A stretch of 64,000 nt of DNA from Actomonas aquatica (GTDB taxonomy: Bacteria; Verrucomicrobiota; Verrucomicrobiia; Opitutales; Opitutaceae). The notes under the pieces were generated by a model that worked only from the letters and a program-made list of their open reading frames with translations, was not told where the DNA came from and did not search any database. Below, piece by piece: positions 34,182 through 38,997 of the stretch. The position numbers and the translations under genes are program-made. Where the stretch lies: positions 186,001-250,000 of the forward strand of contig NZ_CP139781.1 of NCBI RefSeq assembly GCF_019679435.2. Reading direction: 5' to 3'. Positions within the stretch are counted from its first letter, which is position 1. Each line of letters opens with the position of its first letter.

Positions 34182-34200
34182 TTTGACTAGGCTAATATTT
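34182..34200. promoter_or_regulatory. DtxR/IdeR-like operator and probable feo promoter
   Basis: TTTGACTAGGCTAATATTT matches the 19-bp DtxR/IdeR consensus (recalled as TTAGGTTAGSCTAACCTAA) at about 12 positions, including the TAGSCTA core. It overlaps a TAATAT -10-like hexamer (34193-34198); a TTGTTA -35-like hexamer is at 34168-34173, with a 19-bp spacer. It lies 60 bp upstream of the DtxR-FeoA gene, in an unusually AT-rich patch. Binding here would block transcription when iron is plentiful. Confidence 0.55.
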
Positions 34201-34259: not shown

Positions 34260-35228
34260 ATGGCTGAATCGAAATCCTATCACTCCCTGGCCGCGCTCCC
34301 GGCGCCCGACCGCATTGCGGTGGAGGATGTGCTCCGCGCGTTGTTGGAATGCGAATACCGCGGCCACGAAGCAACCGAGGCGCATTTGGCGGGACTCAGT
34401 GATATTGGGCGTCAGCGCACTGGGCGGGGTTTGGCGGAGGCGGGGCGTTTGGAATTGGTGACCACGGCGCTCGCCGGCACGTGGACACTGAGTGTGGCGG
34501 GGCGGGTGGAGGCCGTGCGCATCATGCGGGCGCATCGTCTGACCGAAACGCGACTGGCGCGGGAGACGGGCGTGCCGGCGAAGCAATGGCACGATGTCGC
34601 CCACAGCCATGAACACGCCATGACCGAGGGCGAAGTGGATGCCTTGGCGGATCAGTTGGGCAATCCGCGCTTTGATCCGCACGGCGATCCGATCCCGACC
34701 CGCGAAGGGCATCTGCCGGAGCCGGAAGACCATCCGCTCCTCGAGTGGCCGTCGGGTGAAACCGGAGTGATCGCGCACGTGGAGGATGAGCCCAAGGATT
34801 TGTTTGCCGAGTTGAACGCGCTCGGCGTGGTGGCGGGACTGCGCTTTGTGCGGGTGCGGGGCGACCGGGAGTTGGAGCTGCGGGTCGAAGGTCGCAAAGT
34901 TACCCTTTCGCCGGAGTTGGCCCCGTTGGTGCGGGTGCGGGCGTTGCACCGGGACGAAAACGACATGGTGCCGAATGCGGTGCGCCTGAGCGATCTGGAG
35001 GATGGCGGGGTCGCGCAGGTGGTGACCTTGCTGCCGAGTTGCGCGGGCTCGGAACGGTCGCGGCTGCTGGATCTGGGCTTTGTGCCGGGCAGTCGGATCG
35101 AGCGGGTTTTGAACAGTCCGCTCCACGGGCCGGTGGCCTACGAAGTGCGGGGCACGCTCATCGCGCTGCGACGTTCGCAGGCGGATCACGTTTTGATTAA
35201 AAGAATAACCCAGGAGCAACGCGCATGA
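34260..35228 (+). CDS. DtxR-family metal-dependent repressor fused to a FeoA domain
   Basis: 322 aa. Residues about 15-80 form a winged helix (DRIAVEDVLRALLECEYRGH ... GRGLAEAGRLELV); residues about 80-150 form the dimerisation and metal-binding region (RAHRLTETRLARETGVPAKQ, WHDVAHSHEHAMTEGEVDAL, NPRFDPHGDPIPT) typical of DtxR/MntR. Residues about 245-315 form a FeoA/SH3-like domain (LPSCAGSERSRLLDLGFVPGSRIERVL). It probably senses Fe2+ and controls its own operon; the C-terminus may also act as the FeoA partner, since no separate feoA exists. The ATG at 34260 is preferred to 34245. Its stop overlaps the start of the next gene. Confidence 0.87.
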   Translation: MAESKSYHSLAALPAPDRIAVEDVLRALLECEYRGHEATEAHLAGLSDIGRQRTGRGLAEAGRLELVTTALAGTWTLSVAGRVEAVRIMRAHRLTETRLARETGVPAKQWHDVAHSHEHAMTEGEVDALADQLGNPRFDPHGDPIPTREGHLPEPEDHPLLEWPSGETGVIAHVEDEPKDLFAELNALGVVAGLRFVRVRGDRELELRVEGRKVTLSPELAPLVRVRALHRDENDMVPNAVRLSDLEDGGVAQVVTLLPSCAGSERSRLLDLGFVPGSRIERVLNSPLHGPVAYEVRGTLIALRRSQADHVLIKRITQEQRA

Positions 35229-36031
35229 GTGAAGCCTGTCCTCCCTCGGCCTGCGATTCGTGTCGGGCCGCCCGGGGCGAATTAGAACGCCTCGGACTCA
35301 ACCTCGCCAAGTGGGACCACGTGGTCGCGCTCGCGGGCAATCCCAACACCGGCAAGAGCACGCTCTTCAATCGGCTGACCGGTCTGCGGCAGCACACCGG
35401 CAACTGGCCGGGCAAAACGATCGCACGCGCCGAAGGTGGCTTCGGCTACAACGGCCAGCGCTACAAGATCGTGGACCTGCCGGGCACGTATTCGCTGCGT
35501 TCGGCTTCGCCGGACGAAACGGTGGCGCGCGAGTTTTTGTTGTTTGGTCAACCCGATCTCACGCTCGTGGTGGTGGACGCCACCAGCCTGGAGCGGAACC
35601 TGAATCTGGTGCTGCAGATCCTGCAGATCACCGATCGGGTCGTGGTGGCGATCAACCTCATGGACGAAGCCAAGGCGCACGGCATCCTGATCGATGCGCG
35701 CAAGTTGGCGAAGGACCTCGGCGTGCCGGTGGTGCCTTGCGTGGCGCGCTCGGGCGAGGGCGTGGACGACCTGCTGGCGGAGATGGATGCGGTGGCGAAC
35801 GGCAAGGTCGCGACCAAACCCTATCGTCTGAAACTCGATGTGCCCGGGCTGTCGCGTTCGATGGACGCCTTGGTTGAGAAGTTGAAGCAACGTTTCCCGG
35901 GCCTGCCGCATGCCGAGTGGATCGCTCTGCGCTTGCTCGAAGGCGATCGCACGATCGCGGCGAAAGTGGCGGATGGCTCCATCGGCAAACTCACCGAGGA
36001 CGCGGCCGAGAAAGTGAGGCAGTCGGCATGA
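35225..36031 (+). CDS. feoB: FeoB G-protein domain as a separate protein (ferrous iron transport)
   Basis: 268 aa. GTPase motifs: G1 GNPNTGKST (38-46), G3 DLPG (84-87), G4 NLMD (144-147), G5 VARSGEG. A helical GDI-like region follows and ends at about residue 268 (LKLDVPGLSRSMDALVEKLK). There are no membrane segments, unlike ordinary FeoB of about 700-770 aa. The N-terminal 30 residues carry Cys5, Cys10 and Cys13 before the G-domain, which could bind metal. Start and stop overlap both neighbours (ATGA), so three genes are translated together. The product gates Fe2+ passage through the membrane protein encoded next. Confidence 0.88.
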   Translation: MSEACPPSACDSCRAARGELERLGLNLAKWDHVVALAGNPNTGKSTLFNRLTGLRQHTGNWPGKTIARAEGGFGYNGQRYKIVDLPGTYSLRSASPDETVAREFLLFGQPDLTLVVVDATSLERNLNLVLQILQITDRVVVAINLMDEAKAHGILIDARKLAKDLGVPVVPCVARSGEGVDDLLAEMDAVANGKVATKPYRLKLDVPGLSRSMDALVEKLKQRFPGLPHAEWIALRLLEGDRTIAAKVADGSIGKLTEDAAEKVRQSA

Positions 36032-37443
36032 GTGACGCGAACGTGAAGGACGACCTGTTGCAGATGGCGGAGCAGATGCGCTGGGACTTGCCGCGCAATT
36101 TTAACGACCATCTCACCGAAGCGATTTACGCCGAAAGCACGCGTTTGGCGGAAGGCAGCGTGGCGCGCAAAGGCGAGTCGCGCCGACTGGATCGGCAGCA
36201 CAAAATCGACCGTCTGCTCACGAGTCCGCGCACCGGTTTCGCCATCATGGCGCTGGTGTTTGCGAGCGTGTTGTGGGTGACGATCGTCGGCGCCAATTAC
36301 CCGAGTGGCTGGCTGGCGTGGCTGCTCACCGAGCAGGCGTATGGTTGGCTGCGCGAACTCGCGTTTGGCGCGCTGCCGGCGTGGGTGGCGGGGCTGCTCG
36401 TCGACGGCATGTTTCTGGCGACCGCGTGGGTGATCAGCGTGATGCTGCCGCCGATGGCGATCTTCTTCCCGGTCTTCACGATGTTGGAGGACTTGGGTTA
36501 TCTGCCGCGGGTGGCGTTTAACCTCGATCGCGTGTTTCATCGAGCCGGCGCGCACGGCAAGCAGGCGCTCACGACGGCGATGGGTTACGGTTGCAATGCG
36601 GCCGGCGTGATCGCGGCGCGCGTGATCGATTCGCCACGCGAGCGCTTGATCGCGATCATCACCAACAACTTTTCACTCTGCAACGGACGGTGGCCGACGC
36701 AGATCCTGGTGGCGTCGGTTTTTCTCGGCGCGCTGGTGCCGGCGCAGTTTGCCGGCTTCGTGGCGACGGGCGCGGTGTTTGTGGTGGCGATGCTGGGGTT
36801 CGGGCTGACCTTGCTCAGTTCGTGGGCGCTCAGCCGCACGCTGCTGCGCGGCGAAGCGTCGACGTTCAGTTTGGAACTGCCACCGTTTCGGCCGCCGAAT
36901 TTGTGGCGCACGCTCTACACGTCGTTGATCGATCGCACTCTGTTTGTGTTGTGGCGTGCGGTGGTGTTTGCGATGCCGGCCGGCGCGGTGATCTGGCTGG
37001 TGGCGAATGTGGATATCGGCGACCAAAGCGTGGCGGCGTGGTTCATCAACGGCGTGAACCCGCTGGGCGTTTTGATCGGTCTGAATGGCGTGATCCTGTT
37101 GGCCTACATCATCGCGATTCCGGCCAACGAAATTGTGATCCCGAGCATCCTCATGTTGACGGTGCTGATGACCGGGCAGGCGGATGCCGGCGCGGGCGCC
37201 GGGGTGATGTTTGAAGTCGGCGACGAAGGCGTGAAACAGATCCTGACCGGCGCGGGGTGGACCGCGCTAACGGGCGTGTGCCTGATGTTGTTCAGCCTCT
37301 GCCACAATCCTTGCAGCACGACGCTCTACACCATCTACAAGGAAACCGGCTCGGCCAAGTGGACGGCGCTCTCGGCCCTCATGCCGACGGTGATCGGCTT
37401 CGTGCTCTGCGGCGCGGTCGCGTTTGTGTGGCGGCTGATGTGA
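36028..37443 (+). CDS. FeoB membrane domain as a separate protein (ferrous iron permease)
   Basis: 471 aa. About 75 soluble residues (KDDLLQMAEQMRWDLPRNFN) equal the linker after the FeoB G-domain. Then come two Gate (nucleoside-recognition) domains and the FeoB C region. Conserved Cys motifs: GYGCNAAGV (Cys189), NFSLCNGRWPTQI and HNPCSTT (Cys429). About nine membrane segments are visible, such as TGFAIMALVFASVLWVTIVG. It forms the Fe2+ path in the inner membrane and needs the separate G-protein at 35225-36031. There is no frameshift: the G-domain ends in a stop that overlaps a good ATG. Confidence 0.88.
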   Translation: MSDANVKDDLLQMAEQMRWDLPRNFNDHLTEAIYAESTRLAEGSVARKGESRRLDRQHKIDRLLTSPRTGFAIMALVFASVLWVTIVGANYPSGWLAWLLTEQAYGWLRELAFGALPAWVAGLLVDGMFLATAWVISVMLPPMAIFFPVFTMLEDLGYLPRVAFNLDRVFHRAGAHGKQALTTAMGYGCNAAGVIAARVIDSPRERLIAIITNNFSLCNGRWPTQILVASVFLGALVPAQFAGFVATGAVFVVAMLGFGLTLLSSWALSRTLLRGEASTFSLELPPFRPPNLWRTLYTSLIDRTLFVLWRAVVFAMPAGAVIWLVANVDIGDQSVAAWFINGVNPLGVLIGLNGVILLAYIIAIPANEIVIPSILMLTVLMTGQADAGAGAGVMFEVGDEGVKQILTGAGWTALTGVCLMLFSLCHNPCSTTLYTIYKETGSAKWTALSALMPTVIGFVLCGAVAFVWRLM

Positions 37444-37566: not shown

Positions 37567-38997
37567 CTATCGGCTGACCTCGGCGAAGGGGAACCCCCAG
37601 TTGCGGTGGCCGTAGCCGTAGGTGACGGGCGCGACGTCATCAAGCAGCGCGAGCGCGTCGGCCACGGAGCCCGCGGCGAAGCGTTGTTCGAAGGCGGTGA
37701 CAGCGGCGTCGTAATCGGCGAGGAGGCGAGCCTTGGTGGGCTCCTCGACGAAGGCGTGGGTGAGGGAGTTGCGGCCGAGGGCGACGAGTTCGGCCCAGGA
37801 CAAGTTGTAGTGCGTGACGGCGGTGTAATACTCGTCGGTCAGATTGCTGTCCCACATGCCGCGGTCGTCGGTGTTGAGGCAGACGGGCACGCCGGTGCGC
37901 AGCAGTTCCGGGAAGGGGTGGCGGTCGAGGTCGGGCACGTATTCGAGCAGGCGATTGGAGATGAGGTTGATCTCAATGAGCGTGCGGTCGCTGTGCTGGA
38001 GCAGGAGGAGCGTTTCGGGGTCGCCGAGGAGGTTGAGGCCGTGGCCGATGCGGGAGGCGCCGAGGAGCAGGGTTTCGCGGATGTTGCGATCGGGGCTGTC
38101 CATCTCGCCGGCGTGGATGGAGAGCGGCAGGGTGGGGTATTGCGCGCGCAGGCGACGGTAGGTTTCGAGGAAACGCAGCGGGTAGCCGTGGCCGTTTTCC
38201 TCGATGCCGGCCATGTTGATGGCGACCCATCGATCGCGGTGCGCGTCGACCCAGGCGTAGGTTTTGGCCAACTCGGCTTCGGCATCGGGCGCGAAGCGCA
38301 GCACCATTTCCTGGAAGCGCACGACGAGTCCGGTGTCGGCCACGTCGGGTCGGGCGAGGCGCGCCTCCAGCAAGGCAAGGGCTTCGTCGTCGGAGAGCGG
38401 GGTGAGGTCGTTGTGGTGCAGGCCGGTCACGCCGAACTGCAGCTCGAGGTAACGCAGGCCTTCGGCGGCGAAGGCTTTGATGTTTTCGGCGAGCAGTTCG
38501 AAGCGGACATGCGGGTTGTCGTTGATGTCACCGAGGCGGGGCCAGTGGTCGTCGAAAAACACGTCGCGGCCTTCGCCGGGTGCATCGAGACGGAAGCCGT
38601 CGAGCCAGCCGCGGCGCTCGGCGGCGGTCATCGCGGTGAGCGCCACGTATTCGCGCTGCACGGCGGGCGATAGCTGATCGTAGGTGGCTTGGCGGACCGT
38701 GTGATGGCGGGCGGTGGCGGCGATCGCATCGGGCGCGGCGGCGAAACGCTCGCGGGCGTAGAAGGTGTCGCCGCCGTTGCGCGTCGGGTCGGTGAGCACG
38801 GCCCACATCCATTCCGCACGGTTGGCGCCGCCGAAGTGGTTGTGCAGGTCGCCGCCCTTTGGCAGGGCGTAAAGAAAGGTGTAGAGTTGGGCGGGCGTGG
38901 CGGCGGCACGAAGCGCATCGTAGCGAGCGCCAAAATCGTCGGCGCGGAGGCCGGTGAGGCAGCAACAGGCGAGAAGGACGAAGCGCAGTCGAAGCAT
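37567..38997 (-). CDS. Secreted adenosine deaminase family protein
   Basis: 476 aa. A signal peptide (RLRFVLLACCCLTGLRA) precedes an amidohydrolase barrel: zinc motif GGDLHNHFGGA (HxH), IHAGE with the catalytic Glu, RIGHGLNL with the active-site His, and LNTDDRGMW with the zinc Asp. It is longer than cytoplasmic adenosine deaminases (about 340 aa) and resembles the secreted growth-factor-type ADA2 group. It would deaminate adenosine to inosine in the periplasm. ATG 38997 gives the signal peptide; a start at 39048 does not. It is divergent from adenine deaminase with 77 bp between. Confidence 0.88.
   Translation of the reverse strand: MLRLRFVLLACCCLTGLRADDFGARYDALRAAATPAQLYTFLYALPKGGDLHNHFGGANRAEWMWAVLTDPTRNGGDTFYARERFAAAPDAIAATARHHTVRQATYDQLSPAVQREYVALTAMTAAERRGWLDGFRLDAPGEGRDVFFDDHWPRLGDINDNPHVRFELLAENIKAFAAEGLRYLELQFGVTGLHHNDLTPLSDDEALALLEARLARPDVADTGLVVRFQEMVLRFAPDAEAELAKTYAWVDAHRDRWVAINMAGIEENGHGYPLRFLETYRRLRAQYPTLPLSIHAGEMDSPDRNIRETLLLGASRIGHGLNLLGDPETLLLLQHSDRTLIEINLISNRLLEYVPDLDRHPFPELLRTGVPVCLNTDDRGMWDSNLTDEYYTAVTHYNLSWAELVALGRNSLTHAFVEEPTKARLLADYDAAVTAFEQRFAAGSVADALALLDDVAPVTYGYGHRNWGFPFAEVSR

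Follow-up and report, generated by a model that had tools for sequence, protein, structure and literature searches.

The window analyzed here is a 64,000-nucleotide stretch of the Actomonas aquatica genome (contig NZ_CP139781.1, positions 186,001 to 250,000), and the system in question is a three-gene operon on its forward strand that combines a DtxR/MntR-type regulator with a FeoB transporter, ordinarily a single chain, divided between two proteins. Our analysis suggests that this is probably an intact operon for a divalent metal importer from a separate FeoB subfamily, with FeoB working as a pair of proteins and serving mainly Mn2+ or both Mn2+ and Fe2+. The first gene (34260−35228) encodes a 322-residue regulator with two C-terminal FeoA-type domains, the second (35225−36031) a free-standing FeoB G protein of 268 residues that carries the first part of the GDI domain, and the third (36028−37443) a 471-residue FeoB membrane protein with the last GDI helices, two Gate domains, and FeoB_C. 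All three reading frames are open and the genes are joined by ATGA overlaps, at 35225−35228 between regulator and G protein and at 36028−36031 between G protein and membrane protein, where the split lies; in these respects the layout is as given in a preliminary description of this DNA. In the mechanism that we propose, the two halves would come together again at the membrane, where they would jointly make up the complete GDI helical domain, and the rejoined G protein would hydrolyze GTP as an ordinary FeoB does. The FeoA domain of the regulator would double as the FeoA of the transporter and as a part of the repressor, plentiful Mn2+ (possibly together with Fe2+) would lead the regulator to repress the operon, and the split system would import mainly Mn2+, or both metals, beside the separate ordinary FeoB of the genome.

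In Pfam searches, the regulator matches Fe_dep_repr_C, the metal-binding and dimerization domain (residues 80−147; 34497−34700), followed by two FeoA stretches. The preliminary description had placed a single FeoA domain on this DtxR-type protein; such a domain is indeed present, although not alone, as there is a first FeoA/SH3-type domain at 34734−34940 (PF04023, 29.7 bits, above the cut-off) and a second at 34980−35201 (PF04023, 61.8 bits). We take the first to be the usual third domain of DtxR proteins, while the second, the counterpart of a Bacillota FeoA gene that has no DtxR part, is read as a former free FeoA. The G protein matches FeoB_N (1.8e-60) and, slightly below the cut-off, part of FeoB_Cyto, and the GNPNxGKS, DLPG, and NxxD motifs seen in the alignment mark it as a FeoB-type G domain; the membrane protein matches two Gate stretches and FeoB_C. 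The NCBIfam FeoB model is shared out between the two, with positions 1−170 matching the G protein and 203−594 the membrane protein, and each half scores below the whole-protein cut-off, as halves should.

Many other bacteria have this arrangement too, so the split is genuine and inherited. For the membrane half, relatives were gathered from named genome records (the best 80 of 93), the same family (26 of 150 genomes at E < 1e-100, own genome included; 10 further genomes pass a looser cut with matches of just 26−32% identity), the same phylum (25 of 387 genomes, E up to 1e-60), the phylum of L007, a Gemmatimonadetes record (43 of 150 genomes, E up to 1e-100), and the phylum of L021, a Bryobacteraceae record (20 of 149 genomes, E up to 1e-100). 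A locus was classed as fused when the G part and the membrane part share one open frame and as split otherwise. The 188 loci so classed were reduced to 178 by removing five ordinary FeoB loci (L002, L116−L119) and five with an identical membrane stretch. Among these 178 distinct loci, near-identical ones included, 100 are split, 75 are fused, and 3 are cut off by a contig end, which bears out the earlier claim of real architecture rather than a frameshift. The 26 strong same-family relatives comprise 16 split and 8 fused loci, with 2 left unclassed; the split ones are those of the window's genome, of a same-genus relative (G090, locus L091, identical in sequence to L003, an Opitutaceae bacterium record), and of 14 further genomes. 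Among the best 80 of 93 named records, the split form occurs in nine phyla, several of them represented by a single record: Acidobacteriota, Armatimonadota, Bacillota, Calditrichota, Omnitrophota, Chloroflexota, Ignavibacteriota, Planctomycetota, and Verrucomicrobiota. In the phylum of L007, all 29 newly fetched loci are fused, and the remaining matches lie in open frames of at least 718 residues. A split peculiar to this genome was rejected in view of the many split relatives.

These comparisons bear directly on the idea that the split is a recent break of a single-chain gene, caused by an indel or an assembly error, with the two halves now decaying. Single-chain relatives do exist in the same family, but the split is also found in the same-genus relative and the 14 further family genomes, with start codons at the joint, and the genome is a single contig of 6.11 Mb. 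Comparison with the same-genus relative gives nonsynonymous (dN) and synonymous (dS) substitution rates of 0.153 and 1.17 for the G protein (dN/dS ∼0.13), 0.121 and 1.13 for the membrane protein (∼0.11), and 0.294 and 1.13 for the regulator (∼0.26), low ratios that point to purifying selection on all three genes, with the caveat that dS is near saturation. We therefore consider a recent break exceedingly unlikely. The preliminary description had named two signs that would together speak against the split, single-chain FeoB in close relatives and an indel at the joint; the first is present in 8 of the 26 same-family relatives, and nothing that points to an indel error was observed. The single-chain relatives do not refute the split because, judging from the sequences, there is repeated natural switching between the two forms.

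A single origin of the split is not supported. Placing 53 split and 38 fused rows (91 chosen in all) on a quick maximum-likelihood tree requires at least 12 state changes, counted without direction (split to fused or fused to split), and an earlier quick tree of 99 rows gave 11; when branches below 95 are collapsed in the 91-row tree at least 8 changes remain, and below 99 at least 6. When the labels were shuffled 200 times on the 91-row tree, the minimum was 23 changes and the mean 29. The observed changes are thus far fewer than in the shuffles, yet many, from which it follows that the state is inherited but often flipped. For this tree, like sequences were thinned and certain rows were dropped to leave 118 loci, after which Bacillota and L217−L245 were limited to 8 each. 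The dropped rows (L003, L005, L002, L116−L119, L036, L027, L096, L105, L050, L235, L260, L101, and L079) are duplicates, ordinary FeoB, undecidable loci, or short or odd ones; L133 and L264 were kept, on long branches of unsure placement.

The form of the joint was compared across 87 split loci that have a start codon near it. The most frequent joint is an overlap of −4 (24 of 87). The script finds no start codon near the joint of L079, and the nearest start in L260 lies 160 bases on; at the other loci the starts were picked by rule. In principle, programmed frameshifting or read-through at the joint might still yield a fused FeoB, since many junctions are ATGA overlaps, for which a slip of one base would suffice. 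However, the offset from the G-protein stop to the membrane-protein start falls in all three frames, with remainders of 1, 2, and 0 in 46, 36, and 5 of the 87 loci, so that no single slip would serve, and we regard this route as very improbable.

The preliminary description had the split fall exactly at a domain border, and this does not hold: alignment and models place the cut inside the helical GDI domain, in what is predicted to be a floppy loop, and rule out the border between soluble and membrane parts. When 26 chosen split proteins were aligned with 16 fused ones, two of which are ordinary FeoB, the cut came to lie in one common, variable linker, between an ALRLL(E/D)GD motif and a helix that reads LTEAIYAES in the window's sequence, with some shift toward the C-terminus in the Bacillota rows. 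The model of the G protein (mean predicted local distance difference test score, pLDDT, 83) matches chain residues 1−225 of 268 in the solved NFeoB 3k53 (Z 24.4, root-mean-square deviation (rmsd) 2.5, 219 aligned). The model of L098, a relative in which FeoB is naturally fused (mean pLDDT 78, predicted template modeling score 0.61), matches the same chain over residues 1−268 with its residues 30−321 (Z 29.0, rmsd 3.2, 265 aligned), and its residues 259−276, at the place of the cut, have pLDDT < 50, a disordered linker. Because the match of the free G protein stops at residue 225 of 268, this protein lacks ∼43 residues, or two helices, of a standard NFeoB. In the alignment and in the fused-relative model, these two helices form the N-terminal soluble stretch of the membrane protein (residues ∼1−46; 36028−36165, borders approximate). 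With the last two GDI helices on the membrane protein, it could dock the G protein, and the GDI domain, common to both proteins, may well be their natural docking place. At the other end of the G protein, we note a C-x4-C-x2-C motif (35237−35263), the CxxC of which is kept in 30 of 31 aligned non-Bacillota split rows (the exception is L024). Escherichia coli FeoC has CX4CX2CX5C according to PMC8749426, a likeness that extends to the motif alone.

The membrane half belongs to a FeoB subfamily that is defined by sequence and not by the split, as its signature is present in split and fused rows alike. Cys189, Cys218, and Asn219 are found in all 91 clade rows, the pore signature being the conserved Cys189 plus Cys218-Asn-Gly-Arg (36592−36690). 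Every one of the 91 rows has Asn after the second pore Cys, Asn before a conserved Glu (the PANE motif, Asn367-Glu368; 37126−37131), and His three residues before the third Cys (the HNPC motif, His426 and Cys429; 37303−37314). All 13 rows of ordinary FeoB, two of which are the same gene, instead carry CSAR and Arg/Lys-Glu and have no such His, and the canonical combination of CSAR and Arg/Lys-Glu occurs in none of the 91 clade rows. CNGR and PANE also show no variation across the 29 fused and the 46 split proteins that were aligned. The genome's second system, a canonical FeoB of 703 residues with stand-alone FeoA, provides a direct comparison: both share the G domain, two Gate domains, FeoB_C, the pore cysteines, and the conserved Glu and Arg, the residues being common to the clade and ordinary FeoB in general, whereas the canonical protein is a single chain with CSAR, Arg/Lys-Glu, and separate FeoA genes, and is only ∼26% identical to the split system in the membrane part. 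A phmmer search of the membrane half against PDB sequences returned no match at E up to 1, and in a fold search the membrane part of L098 matched concentrative nucleoside transporters (4pd5, Z 16.9, rmsd 5.1, 322 aligned, 13% identity).

The metal site of the regulator was compared in 60 rows, made up of 59 relatives with a full-length regulator and the window's own, near-identical rows included. Asp23 and His115 of the window align with the Met and Cys of the DtxR structure 7b1v. At the position of DtxR Met10, 58 of the 60 regulators have Asp and 2 have Asn; at that of Cys102, 52 have Glu, 4 (including the window's own) have His, and 4 have Asp. Neither Met nor Cys occurs at these two selective positions in any row, and all 60 keep the His, Glu, and His that align with DtxR 79, 83, and 98. 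The regulator shares with the DtxR/IdeR iron repressors a three-domain layout with an SH3/FeoA-type third domain, but has Asp and His in place of the Met10 and Cys102 ligands and an extra FeoA domain. The manganese-type ligands of Bacillus subtilis MntR are given in PMC4805248 as Asp8 and Glu99.

The same paper, published in 2016, describes Porphyromonas gingivalis MntR (PgMntR), a twin-FeoA protein that shares an operon with the Mn transporter FB2, and reports that PgMntR without its second FeoA domain binds neither Mn2+ nor DNA. The MntR-FeoB2 system of P. gingivalis resembles that of the window in having a DtxR-family regulator with two C-terminal FeoA domains and a metal-site Asp, in an operon with a FeoB-type transporter, and differs in having Cys where the window's regulator has His. 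In PMC8749426, the P. gingivalis Mn transporter is grouped with several Firmicutes Feo systems. The MntR-type Asp, the PgMntR-FB2 precedent, and the clade-specific pore signature cast doubt on the earlier label of an iron operon; use for manganese, or for both metals, is a better fit, and by sequence and by analogy the operon may well handle manganese rather than iron. A somewhat unlikely alternative is that the same two-protein transporter and regulator form an iron importer under iron control, in which the changed residues merely tune affinity. Both halves belong to the FeoB family, the pore cysteines are present in all 91 rows, His115 replaces the MntR Glu, and PgMntR also binds Fe2+ tightly (PMC4805248), all of which would suit an iron importer. 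Against it, the genome already has a separate ordinary FeoB and two FeoA genes, 58 of the 60 regulators have the MntR-type Asp, and the studied relative is described as a manganese system in PMC4805248 and PMC8749426.

Several observations weigh against the reading of a two-protein importer of mainly manganese or of both metals. The clade retains the pore cysteines of ordinary FeoB, His115 of the window is neither the Glu of MntR nor the Cys of DtxR and PgMntR, and an Nramp-like frame that the genome also has might import Mn. PgMntR binds its promoter without metal as well, Fe2+ inhibits the binding, and the authors leave the in vivo effector metal undecided (PMC4805248). The placement of P. 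gingivalis FeoB2 in this clade is one that we infer, and the proposed docking of the halves derives from single-chain models. The split itself may be neutral, as 75 of the 178 relatives manage without it.

The order of genes was followed further in the phylum of L006, a Melioribacteraceae record, which we take to be Bacteroidota in the wide sense. Here 55 of 247 genomes match the regulator at E up to 1e-20; in the best 30 of 55, which were fetched, the match extends over the second FeoA domain, and the other 25 are shorter DtxR-type proteins. The preliminary description proposed to look for the three-gene order in related genomes; here a clade G protein follows the twin-FeoA regulator in 30 of the 30 best loci. 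In 28 of these the G-protein frame closes before the membrane part, and 2 are fused on longer stretches; the membrane part comes next in 27 of the 28, weakly and ∼500 bases on in L162, and in L158 it is not within the fetched stretch. Two of the regulators in this phylum have in-frame TAA codons inside the match (2 in L175 and 1 in L183), which may reflect decay, error, or a different code. Among the best 80 of 93 named loci, the gene directly upstream of FeoB encodes the full DtxR-FeoA-FeoA regulator in 29 and FeoA without the DtxR part in 44, including 42 of the 44 split Bacillota loci; 5 have no FeoA or regulator by rule and 2 lack the G part. In L061 and L072, which are among the five, a FeoA match seen by an earlier script was dropped by the overlap rule. 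L004, L027, and L036 are clade members with no FeoA or regulator directly upstream by rule, and L027 has a FeoA-like match ∼1.4 kb upstream. In Acidobacteriota loci L022, L023, L025, L028−L034, and L069, a second DtxR-like match lies just upstream of the twin-FeoA regulator, and in Gemmatimonadota loci L011, L013, L016, and L081 the fused FeoB is followed by a second FeoB-type G-domain frame of ∼650 residues, stop to stop.

In the whole genome there are four FeoA matches (E up to 0.001). Two lie in the regulator, and the other two fall in small frames immediately ahead of the ordinary FeoB gene, so that the sole FeoA of the split operon is that on its regulator. The operon's having no FeoA besides that of the repressor is the main ground for considering the repressor as a transporter subunit. 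FeoA is likewise covalently joined to another protein of the system in the FeoAB fusion of the Bacteroides fragilis type, where it sits on the FeoB G domain; in the window it sits on the regulator, and FeoB is split. We can extend this, speculatively and with considerable doubt, to a regulator that is also the FeoA subunit of the transporter, in which the second FeoA domain would bind the free G protein and the nucleotide state of the transporter would hold the repressor at the membrane or release it. If so, transport activity would feed directly into gene control, and the separate G protein would give a three-way exchangeable complex. A second DtxR-type frame is present at 2.06 Mb of the genome, and no transporter was recognized beside it among the three neighboring or other frames scanned.

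Upstream of the regulator, a 21-base candidate operator, TTTGACTAGGCTAATATTTGA, lies at 34182−34202 on the forward strand and is suggestive. The element has no second copy within 3 mismatches in the window and none in the genome with two free positions; this uniqueness is no proof of function because a backwards control pattern also has one genome match. Similar half-palindromes, in a motif composed post hoc, lie upstream of the regulators of several relatives. Across 81 upstream sequences, which include related and duplicate ones, the first palindrome, TTWGNCNNNGNCWAA, was found in 29 at up to 2 mismatches, against up to 28 in shuffles, which is little excess. Two motifs drawn post hoc, TTTAGGNNNNCCTAAA at up to 1 mismatch and TTWGRCNWGYCWAA, were found in 6 and 10 of the 81, with shuffled means of 0.1 and 0.25, respectively. 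A sigma-70 scan gave one promoter-like site, and a terminator scan found none. Divergent from the regulator is a double-length ABC permease with two BPD_transp_1 stretches (32387−34117, reverse strand), next to which the following frame encodes an EamA transporter; downstream of the operon, adenosine deaminase-type and adenine deaminase-type genes lie back to back at 37567−40880.

Parts of this system are already in print. The twin-FeoA MntR is described in PMC4805248, and FeoA-FeoB and DtxR-FeoA fusions in PMC4805248 and PMC8980893. A FeoB split into two proteins was not found described among the matches listed from the open-licence PubMed Central literature, which leaves its absence there unproven; the split in PMC10353542 is one of the operon and not of the protein. 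What seems to be undescribed is that FeoB is split within the GDI domain across a whole clade and that this state often reverses, that the pore carries a signature of its own, and that the system is linked to an MntR-type regulator. The roles of FeoA and of FeoB's GTP-binding part in driving metal import are not settled, and a clade that has repeatedly been cut and joined at one GDI loop, often with FeoA on the sensor, offers ready-made soluble partners for tests of the G protein, the GDI domain, and the channel. It also lets one ask whether the transporter reports directly to the repressor. A survey suspected sequencing errors behind some FeoA-NFeoB proteins that have no membrane part (PMC8980893). 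Our results caution that a FeoB protein lacking its membrane part is not necessarily the product of a sequencing error, and that genes annotated as iron uptake may serve manganese.

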